Of a DNA stretch of 64,000 nt, positions 36,246 to 42,234 are shown one piece after another. The stretch's first letter is position 1; every line of letters begins with the position of its first letter. The notes beneath the pieces are model-generated. The model was given only the letters and a program-made list of their open reading frames with translations, ran no database searches and was not told the origin of the DNA. The DNA is from Halogeometricum sp. S3BR5-2 (GTDB lineage: Archaea; Halobacteriota; Halobacteria; Halobacteriales; Haloferacaceae), in the NCBI RefSeq assembly GCF_031624635.1, contig NZ_JAMQOQ010000001.1, positions 682,001 through 746,000 of the forward strand, in the 5' to 3' direction. The position numbers and the translations under genes were made by a program.

Positions 36246-36881
36246 TCAGGCCTCGTACTCGGAGCCTTCGACTCGCCGGTACGTCTCGAGGCGGCGGTAC
36301 TCGTGGATGACCCCGTCGTCGGTCAGCGACACCTCATACTGTCCGATGAGGTCCTGGGTGTCCGGCACGGACCGACGCTCGATGAGTTCGACCGTCGCCA
36401 CCCATCCGTCCTCGCCGCGCATCAGACTGGTGACGCCGTCCAACTCGCGGCCGATGAGTTCGGGCACTTTGTCGCGGACCCGGTTTCGGACGGTGACGAT
36501 GTTCGCGGGTTCTTCGGAGTCGGAATCGGAATCGGAGTCGGAGTCGGAGTCCGTCTCGTCCTGCGACTCCTCGTCCTCGGCGTCCGATTCTGATTTCGAT
36601 TCCGTCGACTCCTGCGATTGCTCTTCGGCGTCCGCTTCGGAGTCGGAGTCGCGGTCGCTCTCTGTCGAGTCGGCTGATTCGGTCTCCTCTTCGGAGTCGG
36701 TGTCTTCTGGCACGTTGGAGTCCTCGCGTTCGTCGTCGTCCTCGGCGTCGGTCGTCTCCGCCGCGTCGGCCTCGTCGACGGTCTCGTTCTCGGGACCGTG
36801 CTGGTGACAGAAGCCGTTCTCCTTCGCGGGGCGCGAACATCGCTCGCCACCCTCGGTGACGGCCCTACACTGGTCGGGCAC
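36246..36881 (-). CDS. gvpO: Gas vesicle protein GvpO with zinc-finger-like head and acidic repeat
   Basis: This 211-residue protein has the GvpO domain at the C-terminus (about 125-211: NIVTVRNRVRDKVPELIGRE, GEDGWVATVELIERRSVPDT, EYRRLETYRR). It is needed for vesicle formation in haloarchaea. The N-terminus has Cys5, Cys12, Cys22 and His25 in a DUF5763-like zinc-binding pattern (CRAVTEGGERC, FCHQH). Residues 30-123 are Asp/Glu/Ser repeats including a run of Ser-Asp pairs. GvpO is normally about 120-140 residues, so this form is extended. It is 13 bp downstream of gvpA. Confidence 0.9.
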   Translation of the reverse strand: MPDQCRAVTEGGERCSRPAKENGFCHQHGPENETVDEADAAETTDAEDDDEREDSNVPEDTDSEEETESADSTESDRDSDSEADAEEQSQESTESKSESDAEDEESQDETDSDSDSDSDSDSEEPANIVTVRNRVRDKVPELIGRELDGVTSLMRGEDGWVATVELIERRSVPDTQDLIGQYEVSLTDDGVIHEYRRLETYRRVEGSEYEA

Positions 36882-36894
36882 GGGTCAGGCCTCC

Positions 36895-37170
36895 TCAGGA
36901 GGCGTCGGGCGACGCTTGCGGGTTCGCGCGCCGAATGTCTATCTCCTGAAGGTCCTCTAAGTCGCCCTGACTCGCTTTCTCTATTTTCGCCATCTCTGAC
37001 GCGTATGTCAGGAAGGTGTCCACCGAGGCGGCGACGATACGGGCCTCGACGGTCAGGATTTCGATACCGACGACGGACACGCGCGCCCATATGTCGATAA
37101 CGATTCCCTTGTCGAGGATTCGGTCCAGCACGTCGGCCAAACTGGAAGCATCCGGGCTATCTGCTGGCAT
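36895..37170 (-). CDS. gvpA: Major gas vesicle structural protein GvpA
   Basis: This 91-residue protein is the shell-forming subunit. The conserved core [20 protein letters not shown] (10-29), [20 protein letters not shown] and [15 protein letters not shown] match GvpA closely. The C-terminal tail ([20 protein letters not shown]) is longer than in the smallest homologues. It is first of a gvpA-gvpO transcript, and a TATA-like TTATTTAA box on the facing strand (37193-37202) lies 25-30 bp upstream, suggesting little or no leader. Confidence 0.96.
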
Positions 37171-37325: not shown

Positions 37326-37949
37326 ATGAGTTCTCATCTGTACGCGTACGGCGTTATCGAGGCCGAGGACCTCGAACTGGACGTCGAGGGCGTCGAGGGG
37401 GAGGGCCCGGTCCAGACCGTGACGTTTCGGACGCTGTCGGCGGTGGTGACGCCCATCGACGACGTCGACGTCGAACGCACGGACGAGAACACGCGGGCGC
37501 ACGACGAGGTACTCAGAGAGGTGATGATGGAGGGCGAGGGTCGGACCGTCGTCCCGATGCAGTTCGGGATGGCGTTCAAGAGTGCGCGGACGCTGAAGAG
37601 CGTCATGCGCGGGGGGCGACGCGCCTTCCGGAAGGCGCTGATGGACGTCGACGGGAAGGTGGAACTCGGCGTCAAAATCGTCGGCTCCGAGGACGGGGCG
37701 CTGACCCGCGAGGACGTGGCGGCCGACGTCTCCGAGCGACTCGTCGCCGTCAGCGACGAGGAGGCCGAGAACGACCTCTACTCCGAGCGCCTGCTGTTCA
37801 ACCGGTCGTACCTCGTCGACCGCGACGCTCAGGAGGCCTTCGGCGAGGTCGTCTCCGAACTCGAAGACGACTACCCCGACGCGACCGTACAGTACACGGG
37901 GCCGTGGGCGCCCTACAACTTCGTCGACGTCGAAATCGAGGCGCAGTAA
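37326..37949 (+). CDS. gvpF: Gas vesicle protein GvpF
   Basis: This 207-residue GvpL/GvpF-family accessory protein binds GvpA and starts vesicle assembly. It shows the start YAYGVIEAEDLELDVEGVEG, RTVVPMQFGMAFKSARTLKS (near residue 73) and a C-terminal QYTGPWAPYNFVDVEIE ending. This is the family's standard N- and C-terminal pattern. It is first gene of the rightward operon, and the next gene begins 2 bp after its stop. Confidence 0.94.
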   Translation: MSSHLYAYGVIEAEDLELDVEGVEGEGPVQTVTFRTLSAVVTPIDDVDVERTDENTRAHDEVLREVMMEGEGRTVVPMQFGMAFKSARTLKSVMRGGRRAFRKALMDVDGKVELGVKIVGSEDGALTREDVAADVSERLVAVSDEEAENDLYSERLLFNRSYLVDRDAQEAFGEVVSELEDDYPDATVQYTGPWAPYNFVDVEIEAQ

Positions 37950-37951
37950 CC

Positions 37952-38203
37952 GTGTTCCTCCTCGACGACATCCTCCTGTGGCCCATCACGAACGTGGTGG
38001 ACGTGCTCCACTCGCTGGCGGTCCAGGAGATGTACGACACCGAGTCAATCCAGAGCGACCTCAAGGAGAACCAACTGCTCTACGAGATAGGCGAACGCGA
38101 CGAAGCGGAGTACGAACGCGAGCGCGCCCGGTTGGAGTCCGAACTCGACGCCGCCGAACGCGCCCGCGAGCGACTCAGCGACAAGGTGGTGGTGCAGCGA
38201 TGA
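37952..38203 (+). CDS. gvpG: Gas vesicle protein GvpG
   Basis: This 83-residue protein begins at GTG 37952. It matches GvpG: FLLDDILLWPITNVVDVLHS at the start, then a long charged helix (ESIQSDLKENQLLYEIGERD) with coiled-coil character to the end. GvpG is an essential accessory that interacts with GvpF and GvpL during assembly. Its stop overlaps the next start as ATGA. Confidence 0.92.
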   Translation: MFLLDDILLWPITNVVDVLHSLAVQEMYDTESIQSDLKENQLLYEIGERDEAEYERERARLESELDAAERARERLSDKVVVQR

Positions 38204-39105
38204 GCGACGAAGAGCGTGCGGAGGGCGCGGAGCGCGACGCGGCGGTCGAAGGAGAGAGCGAGATGGACGTCTCCTCGCTCGTTATTCGGGCGTTGGAGCT
38301 GAGCGAGGCCGCGATGGACGCCGACGGCGAGGACGACTCCGAAGTGGCGGAGATTCTGCGCGACCTGCAGGTCGTCGTCGACGAGGCGGACGAACTGCTC
38401 GACGCCATCGACCTGACGGACCTCCCCGACGCCGTCGACGCCGAGGACGCCGACGAGGTGATACACGAGGAGAACCTCTCGGAGGCGATAACGAACGCCG
38501 ACCCCGAGGAGGCGATTCGCCTCCGGAAACTGCTCGCCGTCATCGACATCGGCGAACTGTGGGACTCCGTCGACGTGCGCGACGTCTGGCGGAACAAACG
38601 CGAGTTCGAGGAGGCCCTCGAAGAACTCGACGAGACCGACGAGGACGATACCCTCCCGTTCGTCGACGACCTCACCGACGAGAGCGCGGACGAGGACGAC
38701 GAACTGATCGACGTCGACGCCGGAGACGCCAAGGACGCGATAACGGGCGACGACGAGAAAGACGACGTCGAACTGCCCGACGAAGCGTACCAGACCGCGA
38801 TACAGTCGAAGCTCTCCGACAGCGTCGACGAGTTCCGAGACGGCCTCGTCCGCACGCACGACCGCATCGAGCGACTGCGCGAGGAGAACCGCGAACGCGT
38901 CGAGCGAACCGGTCAACCCGACTCGCGGAACCCGACGGCGTACTCGACGCTCGCCGCCTCGCGCGGCGTCGCCGACGCCGACACGAAGTACTCGACCGTG
39001 CCGGCCGAGTCGAAGTACTCCAACGCGCCGAACCGAAAGCGGGTGTACGGGTCGCGGTTCGACCAGTTCGCCGAGGGGACGGAGGAGGAGGAGGACGATG
39101 CCTGA
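38200..39105 (+). CDS. Unrecognised gas-vesicle-cluster protein in the gvpH/gvpI slot
   Basis: This 301-residue protein overlaps gvpG (ATGA) and gvpJ (8 bp), so it is part of the operon. It is highly acidic. Residues 22-130 form a helical domain (SSLVIRALELSEAAMDADGE, then LRKLLAVIDIGELWDSVDVR), and there is an acidic middle and a second helical stretch near 205-245. The last 60 residues are basic-aromatic with a Tyr-Ser-Thr/Asn repeat (AYSTLAAS, KYSTVPAES, KYSNAPNRK). There is no Hsp20 domain as in GvpH and no clear GvpI likeness. It may be an assembly chaperone or shell-associated factor. Confidence 0.75.
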   Translation: MSDEERAEGAERDAAVEGESEMDVSSLVIRALELSEAAMDADGEDDSEVAEILRDLQVVVDEADELLDAIDLTDLPDAVDAEDADEVIHEENLSEAITNADPEEAIRLRKLLAVIDIGELWDSVDVRDVWRNKREFEEALEELDETDEDDTLPFVDDLTDESADEDDELIDVDAGDAKDAITGDDEKDDVELPDEAYQTAIQSKLSDSVDEFRDGLVRTHDRIERLREENRERVERTGQPDSRNPTAYSTLAASRGVADADTKYSTVPAESKYSNAPNRKRVYGSRFDQFAEGTEEEEDDA

Positions 39106-39646
39106 TCCGGTCCGTCCGGGGCGCGACTCCGACAGCCTCGCGGACGTGGTCGAACTCCTCCTCGACAAGGGCGTCGTGCTCAACGCCGACATCGTCGTCT
39201 CCGTCGGCGAGACGGAACTGCTCGGCATCCGCCTCCGGGCGGCGCTGGCGTCGTTCGAGACGGCCTCGGAGTTCGGCCTGGAGTTCCCTTCGGGGACCGA
39301 CATGGAGGCCGTCGAGGCGGCGAGCGAGCGCCGACGGCGGGCCAAGATGTCGCCGTCCGGTCGCCCCGGACTCGAAGGGGAGCGAGGCGACGACGAGGGT
39401 GAGACCGGCAGGAGCCGCGAGGACCGCTCCGTCGACGTGATGAACGCGAAGATAGGCGAGGAGGCGAGCGAGCGCTCCGTCGAGGCCGACGAGAACGGAG
39501 ATGAGACGAGCGGCGGCGAGGACGAGTCGGACGACGAGAGCGAAGATGAGACCCGCGGCGGCGGCGGGAACGAGGAGGACGACGGGAACGGCGGAGACGA
39601 TGGAGACGACGAGAACGACGAGAACGAGGAGGACGACGGAGAATGA
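39098..39646 (+). CDS. gvpJ: Gas vesicle protein GvpJ with long acidic tail
   Basis: This 182-residue GvpA-related minor protein is thought to help nucleate the vesicle tip. The GvpA-like core is at 12-65 (SLADVVELLLDKGVVLNADI, VSVGETELLGIRLRAALASF). Known haloarchaeal GvpJ proteins are near 110-115 residues. Here a further 100-plus residues of Glu/Asp/Gly/Asn-rich sequence follow, mostly low complexity. The next gene overlaps as ATGA. Confidence 0.9.
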   Translation: MPDPVRPGRDSDSLADVVELLLDKGVVLNADIVVSVGETELLGIRLRAALASFETASEFGLEFPSGTDMEAVEAASERRRRAKMSPSGRPGLEGERGDDEGETGRSREDRSVDVMNAKIGEEASERSVEADENGDETSGGEDESDDESEDETRGGGGNEEDDGNGGDDGDDENDENEEDDGE

Positions 39647-39996
39647 CGACGGTCGAAGTCGACGAGGACGGCGCGAACGGACTGACGGCCGTCGTCGTCG
39701 CCGTCGTGGAGATACTGGTCGACGCGCTCGAACGCGAGGCCATCCGCCGCATGGAGTCGGGGCGCCTCACCGACGAGGAGATAGAGCGCCTCGGGAGCCA
39801 CCTCGCCCGGTTGGAAGAGGACCTCGAACGGTTGAAGGAGGACCAAGGGGTGGACCAGCAGGTCGACCAACTGCGCGGCGACCTGGACTCGCTCGTCGCC
39901 GACGCCGTCCACCAGGTCCGCACGGAAGAGCGTCGAAGAGGCGACAACGGCGGCGCGGCGCCGCCCGACGCGGGAGGGTCGCGTGAGCGACGCTGA
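39643..39996 (+). CDS. gvpK: Gas vesicle protein GvpK
   Basis: This 117-residue protein matches GvpK: GLTAVVVAVVEILVDALERE near the start, then AIRRMESGRLTDEEIERLG and a coiled-coil segment RLEEDLERLKEDQG. GvpK is one of the eight haloarchaeal proteins required for vesicles. Its 3' end overlaps the GTG start of gvpL by 14 bp, indicating coupled translation. Confidence 0.93.
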   Translation: MTTVEVDEDGANGLTAVVVAVVEILVDALEREAIRRMESGRLTDEEIERLGSHLARLEEDLERLKEDQGVDQQVDQLRGDLDSLVADAVHQVRTEERRRGDNGGAAPPDAGGSRERR

Positions 39997-40852
39997 CGGG
40001 GCGCCCGACGGGGGCGATGGCTCCGAGGGCCGCTACCTCTACTGCGTCGTCCGCCGGGACGACGACGCCGCCGCGGGACTCGACGCCCGCGGCGTCGGCG
40101 GTGCGCCGCTCTCCGTGGTCTCGACCGAGCGACTCTCGGCGGTCGTCCACGAGCGCAGCGAACCGTACGAGTCGGACGCGCCCGACGAGGTGCGCGAGTG
40201 GTTGTACGACCACCAGGACGCCGTCGAGGACGTCGGCGAGGCGTTCGGGACGCCGGTGCCGTTCCGCTTCGACACCATCGTCCGCGGCGGCGACGGGACG
40301 ATACGCGAGTGGTTACGGGCGAACGAGGAGACGCTCTCGGAGGCGCTGGACTCGCTGGCCGGCCGGTGGGAGTACCGCGTGGAGGTCGAGTGGGACCGCG
40401 AGGACCTCGCCGAACGGGTCGGCGGCGACGACGAGCGACTCGCGGAGCTATCGGAGAAGCTCTCGAACGCCTCCGAGGGGACGGCGTTTCTCGTACAGAA
40501 GCAGTACGACAAGCGGCTCTCAGAGCTCGTGAAACGCAGGCGGCGGGCGCGCGCGGACGAACTCGTCGCGGAACTGGAGTCGCGGACCGACGAGGTGCGC
40601 GAACTCGGCGACGCGCCGCAGACGCCGCTGACCGAGGCGCCGACGGGGCCGACGGCCCGATTCGCCGTCCTCGCCGACGAGGGGGAGTGCGACGCCGTCG
40701 GGGAGTACCTCGACACCGTCGCCGACGAGGACGGGGCGTCGGTTCGGTTCACCGGGCCGTGGCCGCCGTACACGTTCGCGCCGGACGCGCTCGAACCCGC
40801 GGAGGGAGGAACGAAAGAGGAGGAGACGAATGGAACCGGACCCGCCGAGTGA
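39983..40852 (+). CDS. gvpL: Gas vesicle protein GvpL
   Basis: This 289-residue GvpL/GvpF-family protein is the interaction hub of the accessory proteins. GRYLYCVVRRDD at the start, VHERSEPYESDAP, then GTPVPFRFDTIVRG (near 88) and VRFTGPWPPYTFAPDAL near the end mark the two halves of the family fold. LVQKQYDKRLSELVKRRRRA (near 170) is the conserved basic helix. GTG at 39983 is the start, within gvpK. The last 20 residues are acidic and overlap gvpM by 23 bp. Confidence 0.93.
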   Translation: MSDADGAPDGGDGSEGRYLYCVVRRDDDAAAGLDARGVGGAPLSVVSTERLSAVVHERSEPYESDAPDEVREWLYDHQDAVEDVGEAFGTPVPFRFDTIVRGGDGTIREWLRANEETLSEALDSLAGRWEYRVEVEWDREDLAERVGGDDERLAELSEKLSNASEGTAFLVQKQYDKRLSELVKRRRRARADELVAELESRTDEVRELGDAPQTPLTEAPTGPTARFAVLADEGECDAVGEYLDTVADEDGASVRFTGPWPPYTFAPDALEPAEGGTKEEETNGTGPAE

Positions 40853-41102
40853 CGACGACGCGGTGGTCGACCTCGTGGACGTGCTCCTGCGCGACGGCGC
40901 CGTCCTCGACGCCGACGTGGTCGTCACCGTCGCGGAGATTCCGCTCGTCGGTATCAAACTCCGGGCGGCCGTCGCGGGGATGACGAAGATGACGGAGTAC
41001 GGACTGTTCGAGGAGTGGGACGAACGGATACGAGAAGAACAGCGTCGGCGCGAAGCGCGGTTCGAATCCGAGTCCGACCTCGACATCGACCCCGAACGCT
41101 GA
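40830..41102 (+). CDS. gvpM: Gas vesicle protein GvpM
   Basis: This 90-residue protein is another GvpA-like minor component. The core VVDLVDVLLRDGAVLDADVV (12-31) and VTVAEIPLVGIKLRAAVAGM parallel GvpA and GvpJ, and a charged tail follows (REEQRRREARFE). It is the last gene of the rightward operon. A Shine-Dalgarno-like GAGGAGAC lies 3 bp before the ATG inside gvpL. Tandem hairpins about 240 bp downstream could end transcription. Confidence 0.92.
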   Translation: MEPDPPSDDDAVVDLVDVLLRDGAVLDADVVVTVAEIPLVGIKLRAAVAGMTKMTEYGLFEEWDERIREEQRRREARFESESDLDIDPER

Positions 41103-41414: not shown

Positions 41415-42203
41415 TCAGCGGAGCGGTTCCGCGCCCGTCCGGTGGGCGTCGTACGTCTCCTCGGCCCACCGGCGAACGCGTTCGTCCGCCGTCTCGACCA
41501 TCGCCCGCGGCACCCCGTCGCCGTCGCCGACGCCCAGTTGCACGTCGCCCTCGAACAGACCGACGTAGAGGGGGACGGCGCGATCGCTGACGTAGAACTC
41601 GATCCGTCCCCGTTCGCGGAGTTCGTCTATCGCGTCGAGGTACTTCCGCTCGTTCCGTATCGTCTCGGCGACCGACGGCGAGACGACGAGTTCGTGCTCG
41701 AAGCTCTCCAGTCTCCGACCGAGAGAGCGCATCGGACGCAGCCCCGTCGCCGGGAGGAGACCGCGGAACTCCGCCGCGACTTCGAGGCGTTCGACGTGTC
41801 TGTCTATCGGGGCGTACGGGTCCGCGGGCGTCGACGGGTAGACGTCCGCGTCCGCCAGCCACTCCGAGGGGAGGTCGAGGCCGTCGGCCGGGAACCACTC
41901 GAAGAACGGGGCGAGGCGGTCGACAGTCTCGACCGTCGAGAGAAACGACTCCAACCCGGCGGCGAGGAGTTCGCCGCCCGGCGCGGCGCGGTAGTCGCCG
42001 TCGGACTCCTCGACCCACCCCCGGTCGACCAGGGCGTCGAGGTTGCGGGAGACGGTCGTCCGCGAGGCGTCGACGCCCGCGCGCAGTTCGCATCTGTTCA
42101 TCGGCCCCCCCTCGACGAGGAGCGACAGGAGGCGGACGCGCGCCGGCGACTGCGAGACGAACCGCACGTCGTCGAGCGCGTCGGGCGAAAACTCGGACAC
42201 CAT
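41415..42203 (-). CDS. Winged-HTH transcriptional regulator (haloarchaeal DUF1724-type)
   Basis: This 262-residue protein has an N-terminal winged helix (about residues 8-80: FVSQSPARVRLLSLLVEGGP, CELRAGVDASRTTVSRNLDA). A C-terminal alpha/beta sensor-like domain (about 100-262) has FEHELVVSPSVAETIRNERK and GRIEFYVSDRAVPLYVGLFE. This two-part layout is the DUF1724/methanogen_AI-type regulator family common in haloarchaea. The start at 42203 is fixed by a strong TATA box 20-30 bp upstream. It ends facing gvpM; a role in gas vesicle control is possible but unproven. Confidence 0.83.
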   Translation of the reverse strand: MVSEFSPDALDDVRFVSQSPARVRLLSLLVEGGPMNRCELRAGVDASRTTVSRNLDALVDRGWVEESDGDYRAAPGGELLAAGLESFLSTVETVDRLAPFFEWFPADGLDLPSEWLADADVYPSTPADPYAPIDRHVERLEVAAEFRGLLPATGLRPMRSLGRRLESFEHELVVSPSVAETIRNERKYLDAIDELRERGRIEFYVSDRAVPLYVGLFEGDVQLGVGDGDGVPRAMVETADERVRRWAEETYDAHRTGAEPLR

Positions 42204-42221
42204 CGGGATGTACTGACAGTC

Positions 42222-42234
42222 CACATATATATTA
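42222..42234 (-). promoter_or_regulatory. TATA element of the HTH regulator gene
   Basis: The minus strand here carries TTAATATATATG-like A/T sequence (plus-strand ATATATATT), centred about 25-27 bp before the ATG at 42203. That position implies a leaderless mRNA and rules out the upstream in-frame start at 42224, which lies inside the box. Confidence 0.65.

Follow-up and report, generated by a model that had tools for sequence, protein, structure and literature searches.

A gene in the gas-vesicle cluster of Halogeometricum sp. S3BR5-2 very probably encodes a long form of GvpI with an N-terminal repeat domain

Introduction

Which protein is encoded between gvpG and gvpJ in the gas-vesicle cluster of Halogeometricum sp. 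S3BR5-2? An earlier note, made from the sequence alone, described it as an unrecognised protein that very likely belongs to the gas-vesicle system and might take the place of GvpH and GvpI. We analyzed the gene in its window (the whole stretch of 64,000 nucleotides, contig NZ_JAMQOQ010000001.1, positions 682,001 to 746,000), in the rest of the genome and across the order. In Halobacterium, GvpI is non-essential, and its loss leads to extremely long vesicles (PMC4390858). It binds strongly to GvpH and also to GvpL and GvpF (PMC7688916); binding to GvpC, GvpL and GvpH was recorded in split-GFP tests (table in PMC9501494), and GvpA alone did not pull down GvpI (PMC9372576). The basic N-terminal helix of GvpI was proposed to act as a bridge between acidic Gvp proteins (PMC7688916).

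Results

The gene and its operon

The ORF at 38200-39105 on the plus strand starts with ATG and codes for 301 residues. The overlaps on both sides, read as translational coupling in the earlier note, were confirmed: the start overlaps the gvpG stop by 4 nt (ATGA, 38200-38203) and the end overlaps the start of gvpJ, at 39098, by 8 nt. When the gene was compared with those of three genus relatives, substitutions at codon positions 1/2/3 numbered 29/19/61, 16/13/48 and 72/62/112. This excess at third positions, which was strongest in the C-terminal part (1/3/18 against Halogeometricum pallidum), indicates that the ORF is under protein-level selection. The cluster is split between the two strands, with gvpO and gvpA on the minus strand and gvpF, gvpG, the long gvpI, gvpJ, gvpK, gvpL and gvpM on the plus strand:

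36246..36881, minus strand: gvpO (PF05800 and NF045806)
36895..37170, minus strand: gvpA (NF046092, 131 bits)
37326..37949, plus strand: gvpF (PF06386)
37952..38203, plus strand: gvpG, upstream with the 4-nt overlap (NF045779, 128 bits)
38200..39105, plus strand: long-form gvpI, 301 aa (ORF, short-GvpI profile, profile-profile comparison, gvpI slot in relatives)
39098..39646, plus strand: gvpJ, downstream with the 8-nt overlap (NF046090, 128 bits)
39643..39996, plus strand: gvpK (PF05121)
39983..40852, plus strand: gvpL (NF045778, 307 bits)
40830..41102, plus strand: gvpM (NF046091, 122 bits)

The operon had been called otherwise standard, which holds only in part: gvpH is absent from the cluster, no match to GvpC (PF05465) was obtained in the whole genome, and no GvpN scored above the family cut-off there. 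The only three GvpA-family genes of the genome all lie inside this cluster. No gvpD or gvpE was seen among the ORFs surrounding it, and for this reason we consider a gene adjoining gvpM (41415-42224, minus strand), whose product is a winged-helix protein of the HVO_A0261/FilR1 type, to be a candidate regulator. Of four genus relatives tested, three (L002, L034 and L036) also have this gene next to the cluster.

Identification of the protein as a long GvpI

Searches of Pfam and of PDB sequences gave no match to the protein, and the best NCBIfam hit was not meaningful (E 0.32), indicating that, as the earlier note had stated, there is no Hsp20 domain. Since Pfam is silent even on Halobacterium GvpI, it is understandable that the protein looked unrecognised, and this silence is no evidence against its being GvpI. 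A profile built solely from short GvpIs (12 sequences, long forms excluded) matched residues ~202-298 with an E value of 9e-15 (53 bits), while none of 2,700 shuffles and no unrelated ORF matched it. The match spans model positions 17-119, that is, 103 of 134, and is confined to the C-terminal third of the 301-aa protein because the N-terminal ~195 residues form an extension. Consistent with this result, hhalign of 27 long forms against the 12 short GvpIs returned a probability of 99.05% (E 2e-18, 90 columns). By contrast, a GvpH profile matched none of the long forms at E<=10; the profile comparison with GvpH and GvpI that the earlier note had proposed thus came out for GvpI only, and the full-length match that the note had named as refuting its reading was largely obtained on the side of GvpI. 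A match in locus L071 was discarded as spurious, being an ABC-transporter frame.

When plasmids were searched by tblastn, gvpI of Halobacterium salinarum was the weakest match (residues 243-297, 37%, E 0.8). The better matches were other haloarchaeal genes annotated as "hypothetical protein", most of which lie between gvpH and gvpJ, the gvpI slot; relatives located directly between gvpH (or gvpG) and gvpJ were found on named plasmids of Haladaptatus, Natronorubrum and Natrinema. The nearest named relative is from Halogeometricum pallidum (NZ_AOIV01000042), also the one relative found by a short-peptide-pattern scan of genome contigs; the same scan of viral contigs found none. The long-form alignment (A1) was too diverse for scanning of this kind.

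Taken together, profile homology and gene order make it very probable that the ORF encodes a long form of GvpI, and its membership of the gas-vesicle system, as first suggested, is borne out by both. The view that it is a novel gas-vesicle protein without kinship to GvpI, whose tail came to look alike by convergence, could draw on the empty Pfam, NCBIfam and PDB searches and on a size and charge unlike those of GvpI. Yet the homology is significant across most of GvpI, the gvpI operon slot is shared by 126 of 137 loci, and the empty libraries carry no weight when they miss the Halobacterium protein as well. The profile and synteny results thus already refute this view, to which we give hardly any credence. 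Rather than replacing GvpI, the protein is very probably GvpI itself.

A conserved C-terminal module and an N-terminal repeat domain

The following parts were distinguished in the protein, all on the plus strand:

38263..38406: N-terminal helical part, residues 22-69 (AlphaFold2 helices of low to moderate confidence; conserved in 27 relatives)
38407..38595: seven 9-residue repeats, residues 70-132, consensus [VI]-D-x-x-[ED]-L-P-[DE]-A (period-9 self-similarity)
38644..38781: acidic low-confidence linker, residues 149-194 (sequence; pLDDT mostly <50; gappy in relatives)
38782..38910: helix of the GvpI module, residues 195-237 (hhalign, charge comparison, AlphaFold2)
38929..39060: GvpI tail, NPTAYST...KYSTVP...KYSNAPNRKRVYGSRF, residues 244-287 (invariant residues in A1; matching motif in short GvpIs)

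The homology to Halobacterium GvpI lies in the C-terminal ~100 residues of the long form and extends over almost all of the short protein. The shared module consists of a helix followed by three [Y/H]S-T-x-P-type repeats (NPTA-x-ST, STVP and YS) and by R-x-R-[IVL]-YG-x-R-[FL]; P245, T246, P268, S274, R281, Y283, G284 and R286 are invariant in A1. An acidic body and a basic tail with three YS(T/N) repeats had been described in the earlier note. The repeats were found at residues 248-250, 264-266 and 273-275, and the calculated pI was about 4 for the body (the calculator's floor) and 9.6 for the tail from residue 243. NRKRVYGSRF, taken at that time for the end of the protein, is present at residues 278-287 but is followed by 14 more residues, DQFAEGTEEEEDDA. 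Both NRKRVYGSRF and the basic Tyr-Ser-Thr repeats belong to the conserved tail of GvpI.

The helix differs between the two forms: its net charge is -1 here and ranges from -7 to +6 across long forms, as against +5 to +12 in short GvpIs. The long form thus lacks a strongly basic helix like that of short GvpI, a difference that is new as far as could be found in the open-access literature searched. Because this helix is not conserved while the tail motif is kept, binding probably depends at its core on the tail rather than on the basic helix. The published basic-helix model of GvpI (PMC7688916) is not applicable to the long form, given its near-neutral helix, and, since the tail motif alone is shared, the tail is the part worth testing.

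The N-terminal extension of ~200 residues is acidic, mainly helical according to predictions of low to moderate confidence, and conserved in 27 relatives. Its repeat units are, in order, IDLTDLPDA, VDAEDADEV, IHEENLSEA, ITNADPEEA, IRLRKLLAV, IDIGELWDS and VDVRDVWRN. Self-similarity at period 9 reached a z of 27 over the 27 relatives, and its harmonic at 18 a z of 20; the signal in this protein alone was reached by none of 2000 shuffles. As far as could be found, the repeat is absent from the open-access literature searched. The AlphaFold2 model, computed with two aligned sequences only, is all-helical with a disordered tail; with a mean pLDDT of 50 for the whole protein and 62 for the N-domain, its confidence was too weak for a fold search. 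A divergent stand-alone protein (L070:5728-6558) carries the N-domain (38 bits) and an RFSTVPS motif and lacks the YG-x-R ending; no gvp genes were detected around its locus.

Distribution of long GvpI and loss of gvpH

Among 392 genomes of the order, 164 had a GvpI match, which, sorted by E-value, comprised about 150 long forms, 10 short forms and four unclear cases. GvpI biology has been built on the short basic Halobacterium form, which is the minority among these genomes. Of 137 non-identical long-form loci, 11 stand alone and the others adjoin gvpJ. In the 123 long-form clusters with a resolved upstream side, gvpH is present in 108 and absent in 15, including this one. A quick tree requires about four changes in gvpH presence, suggesting that gvpH was probably lost more than once; long-form clusters without gvpH are absent, as far as could be found, from the open-access literature searched. 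A gvpH-gvpI fusion was ruled out, since those 108 clusters have gvpH as a gene of its own in addition to long gvpI.

The genome contains a stand-alone gene of the GvpH family (PF05455, 35 bits, no HSP20 match) at C6:97964-98446 of G000 (L032:1483-1968), far from the gvp cluster, and such a gene was found in all five genus genomes. That gvpH had moved in trans was rejected: in other genera (G008, G009 and G103), likely orthologs of the stand-alone gene occur along with a gvpH inside the cluster, so that it is a separate paralog. It is nevertheless possible that it stands in for the missing gvpH.

Could long GvpI itself replace GvpH, its acidic helical N-domain keeping GvpM soluble where gvpH is gone? 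The absence of gvpH here and in 14 other resolved long-form clusters would fit this idea. However, the 108 clusters that hold both genes indicate that the N-domain did not originate as a GvpH substitute, the GvpH profile gave no match, and a PF05455 gene exists elsewhere in the genome and genus, although genomes whose cluster retains gvpH have one too. We therefore regard replacement of GvpH as quite improbable.

Long GvpI and GvpC hardly ever occur together

In the family set, GvpC was found in 15 of 16 short-GvpI genomes (14 from the search and two added by reading their clusters) and in none of 27 long-GvpI genomes. In the order set, all 10 short-GvpI genomes, six of which were already in the family set, had a repeat-array GvpC, and the ~150 long ones lacked it. 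With both sets combined, repeat-array GvpC is present in 19 of 20 short-GvpI genomes and in 0 of ~150 long-form genomes. The single short-GvpI genome without GvpC (G095) is an assembly that is 68% complete. Two long-form genomes (G217 and G231) each had one marginal GvpC match just above the cut-off, located far from the cluster or on another contig. Both kinds of GvpI occur within genera g55, g51 and g21, where GvpC switches together with GvpI length. A review table (PMC9501494) lists Halogeometricum borinquense with gvpC and gvpDE; our search of five genus genomes found no GvpC, and the H. borinquense strain of that table is possibly not among them.

Long GvpI and GvpC are thus nearly mutually exclusive. 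This is a correlation, uncorrected for relatedness, and cluster lineage is a confounder because gvpD and gvpE, too, were found in short-GvpI clusters only (L233-L236 and other short-form loci) and never next to long GvpI. As far as could be found, the order-wide exclusion is absent from the open-access literature searched. It raises the question of what stiffens the vesicles in the absence of GvpC.

Discussion

By analogy with Halobacterium, the conserved tail would dock onto the GvpL/GvpF assembly platform and, in clusters that have GvpH, onto GvpH too; the docked long GvpI would limit vesicle lengthening. Considering the exclusion of GvpC, the repeat domain might in addition supply, in cis, part of the shape or strength function of GvpC. 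We hold this GvpC-type role of the N-domain to be speculative and rather unlikely. Its general form, that most gas-vesicle haloarchaea shape or stiffen the wall without GvpC by means of a nonapeptide-repeat domain fused to GvpI, is similarly doubtful. If it were true, GvpI, which in Halobacterium does no more than bind GvpC, would in its long form carry that function itself.

The competing explanation is that two anciently separate gvp cluster lineages travel as blocks, with GvpI length, GvpC, GvpD and GvpE as lineage markers. The N-domain would then be unrelated to GvpC, and may be an acidic solubilising arm or a GvpH-like chaperone for the hydrophobic GvpM or GvpJ. This explanation, whose chances we judge to be about even, competes only with the GvpC-related part of the mechanism, as the protein is GvpI under it too. 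It is favored by the restriction of gvpD and gvpE to short-GvpI clusters, by the switching of the whole set together within a single genus, and by the N-domain having no sequence similarity to GvpC: the N-domain profile matched no ORF in GvpC loci. On the other hand, it leaves unexplained why the N-domain and its 9-residue repeat are retained in ~150 genomes, and, as the domain persists both with and without gvpH, it is no simple GvpH substitute. Haloarchaeal GvpC (PF05465) and long GvpI are both repeat-containing gas-vesicle proteins, but the repeats of GvpC have 32 residues and those of long GvpI nine, with no detectable similarity and no GvpC repeats found by Pfam.

A long form of GvpI is itself not new. 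The 2012 genome paper of Natrialba magadii described a long gvpI (Nmag_0338) in an organism without gvpC, gvpD and gvpE (PMC3403918). Nmag_0338 and Htur_2370 of Haloterrigena turkmenica resemble the gene studied here in being gvpI homologs with a long N-terminal extension in clusters that lack these three genes; in the present cluster gvpH and gvpN are absent as well. This likeness is one of description, the sequences compared being other Natrialbaceae long forms (L076 and L079). As in the Natrialba magadii type, the gene lies between gvpG and gvpJ. Halobacterium salinarum GvpI shares the C-terminal module (NPxAxST, STVP, YS and R-x-R-L-YG-x-R) and the place before gvpJ. By contrast, it has 144 aa, a pI of 10.8, a strongly basic helix and no N-terminal extension, whereas the protein here has 301 aa, outside the ~120-150 aa of the characterised Halobacterium-form GvpIs, and a pI of ~4; its cluster contains gvpC, gvpD, gvpE and gvpH, none of which was found in the present one. 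With GvpH (PF05455), long GvpI shares a neighboring operon position, but the Hsp20-like GvpH has no profile match to it. What we describe is therefore a poorly characterised, previously noted variant of a known protein, together with one testable new correlation; the 9-residue repeat, the GvpC exclusion, the gvpH-less clusters and the orphan copies described below are new as far as could be found in the open-access literature. Given that Pfam is silent and relatives are annotated as hypothetical proteins, alignments A1 and A2 could seed a GvpI family model.

Orphan long-GvpI paralogs outside gvp operons were found at L066:5082-5867, L067:5451-6233, L068:5609-6379, L069:5290-6117, L042:5905-6921 and L077:4761-5546, and in L201, L215, L216 and L221. 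Eight of the orphans form one tree group (SH-aLRT 88) from three families, while L077 looks to have been orphaned recently, and so perhaps does L220, next to which lies a GvpA-family gene. GvpA-family genes are also present in each of the 11 genomes that carry an orphan long GvpI.

Finally, gvpH and long gvpI are separated by ~1 kb in some clusters (L078:3713-4656, and near L169, L206, L210, L088, L092 and L099). In Halocatena (L078), two further genes, both hypothetical, lie in this gap and may be additional unrecognised gvp genes.
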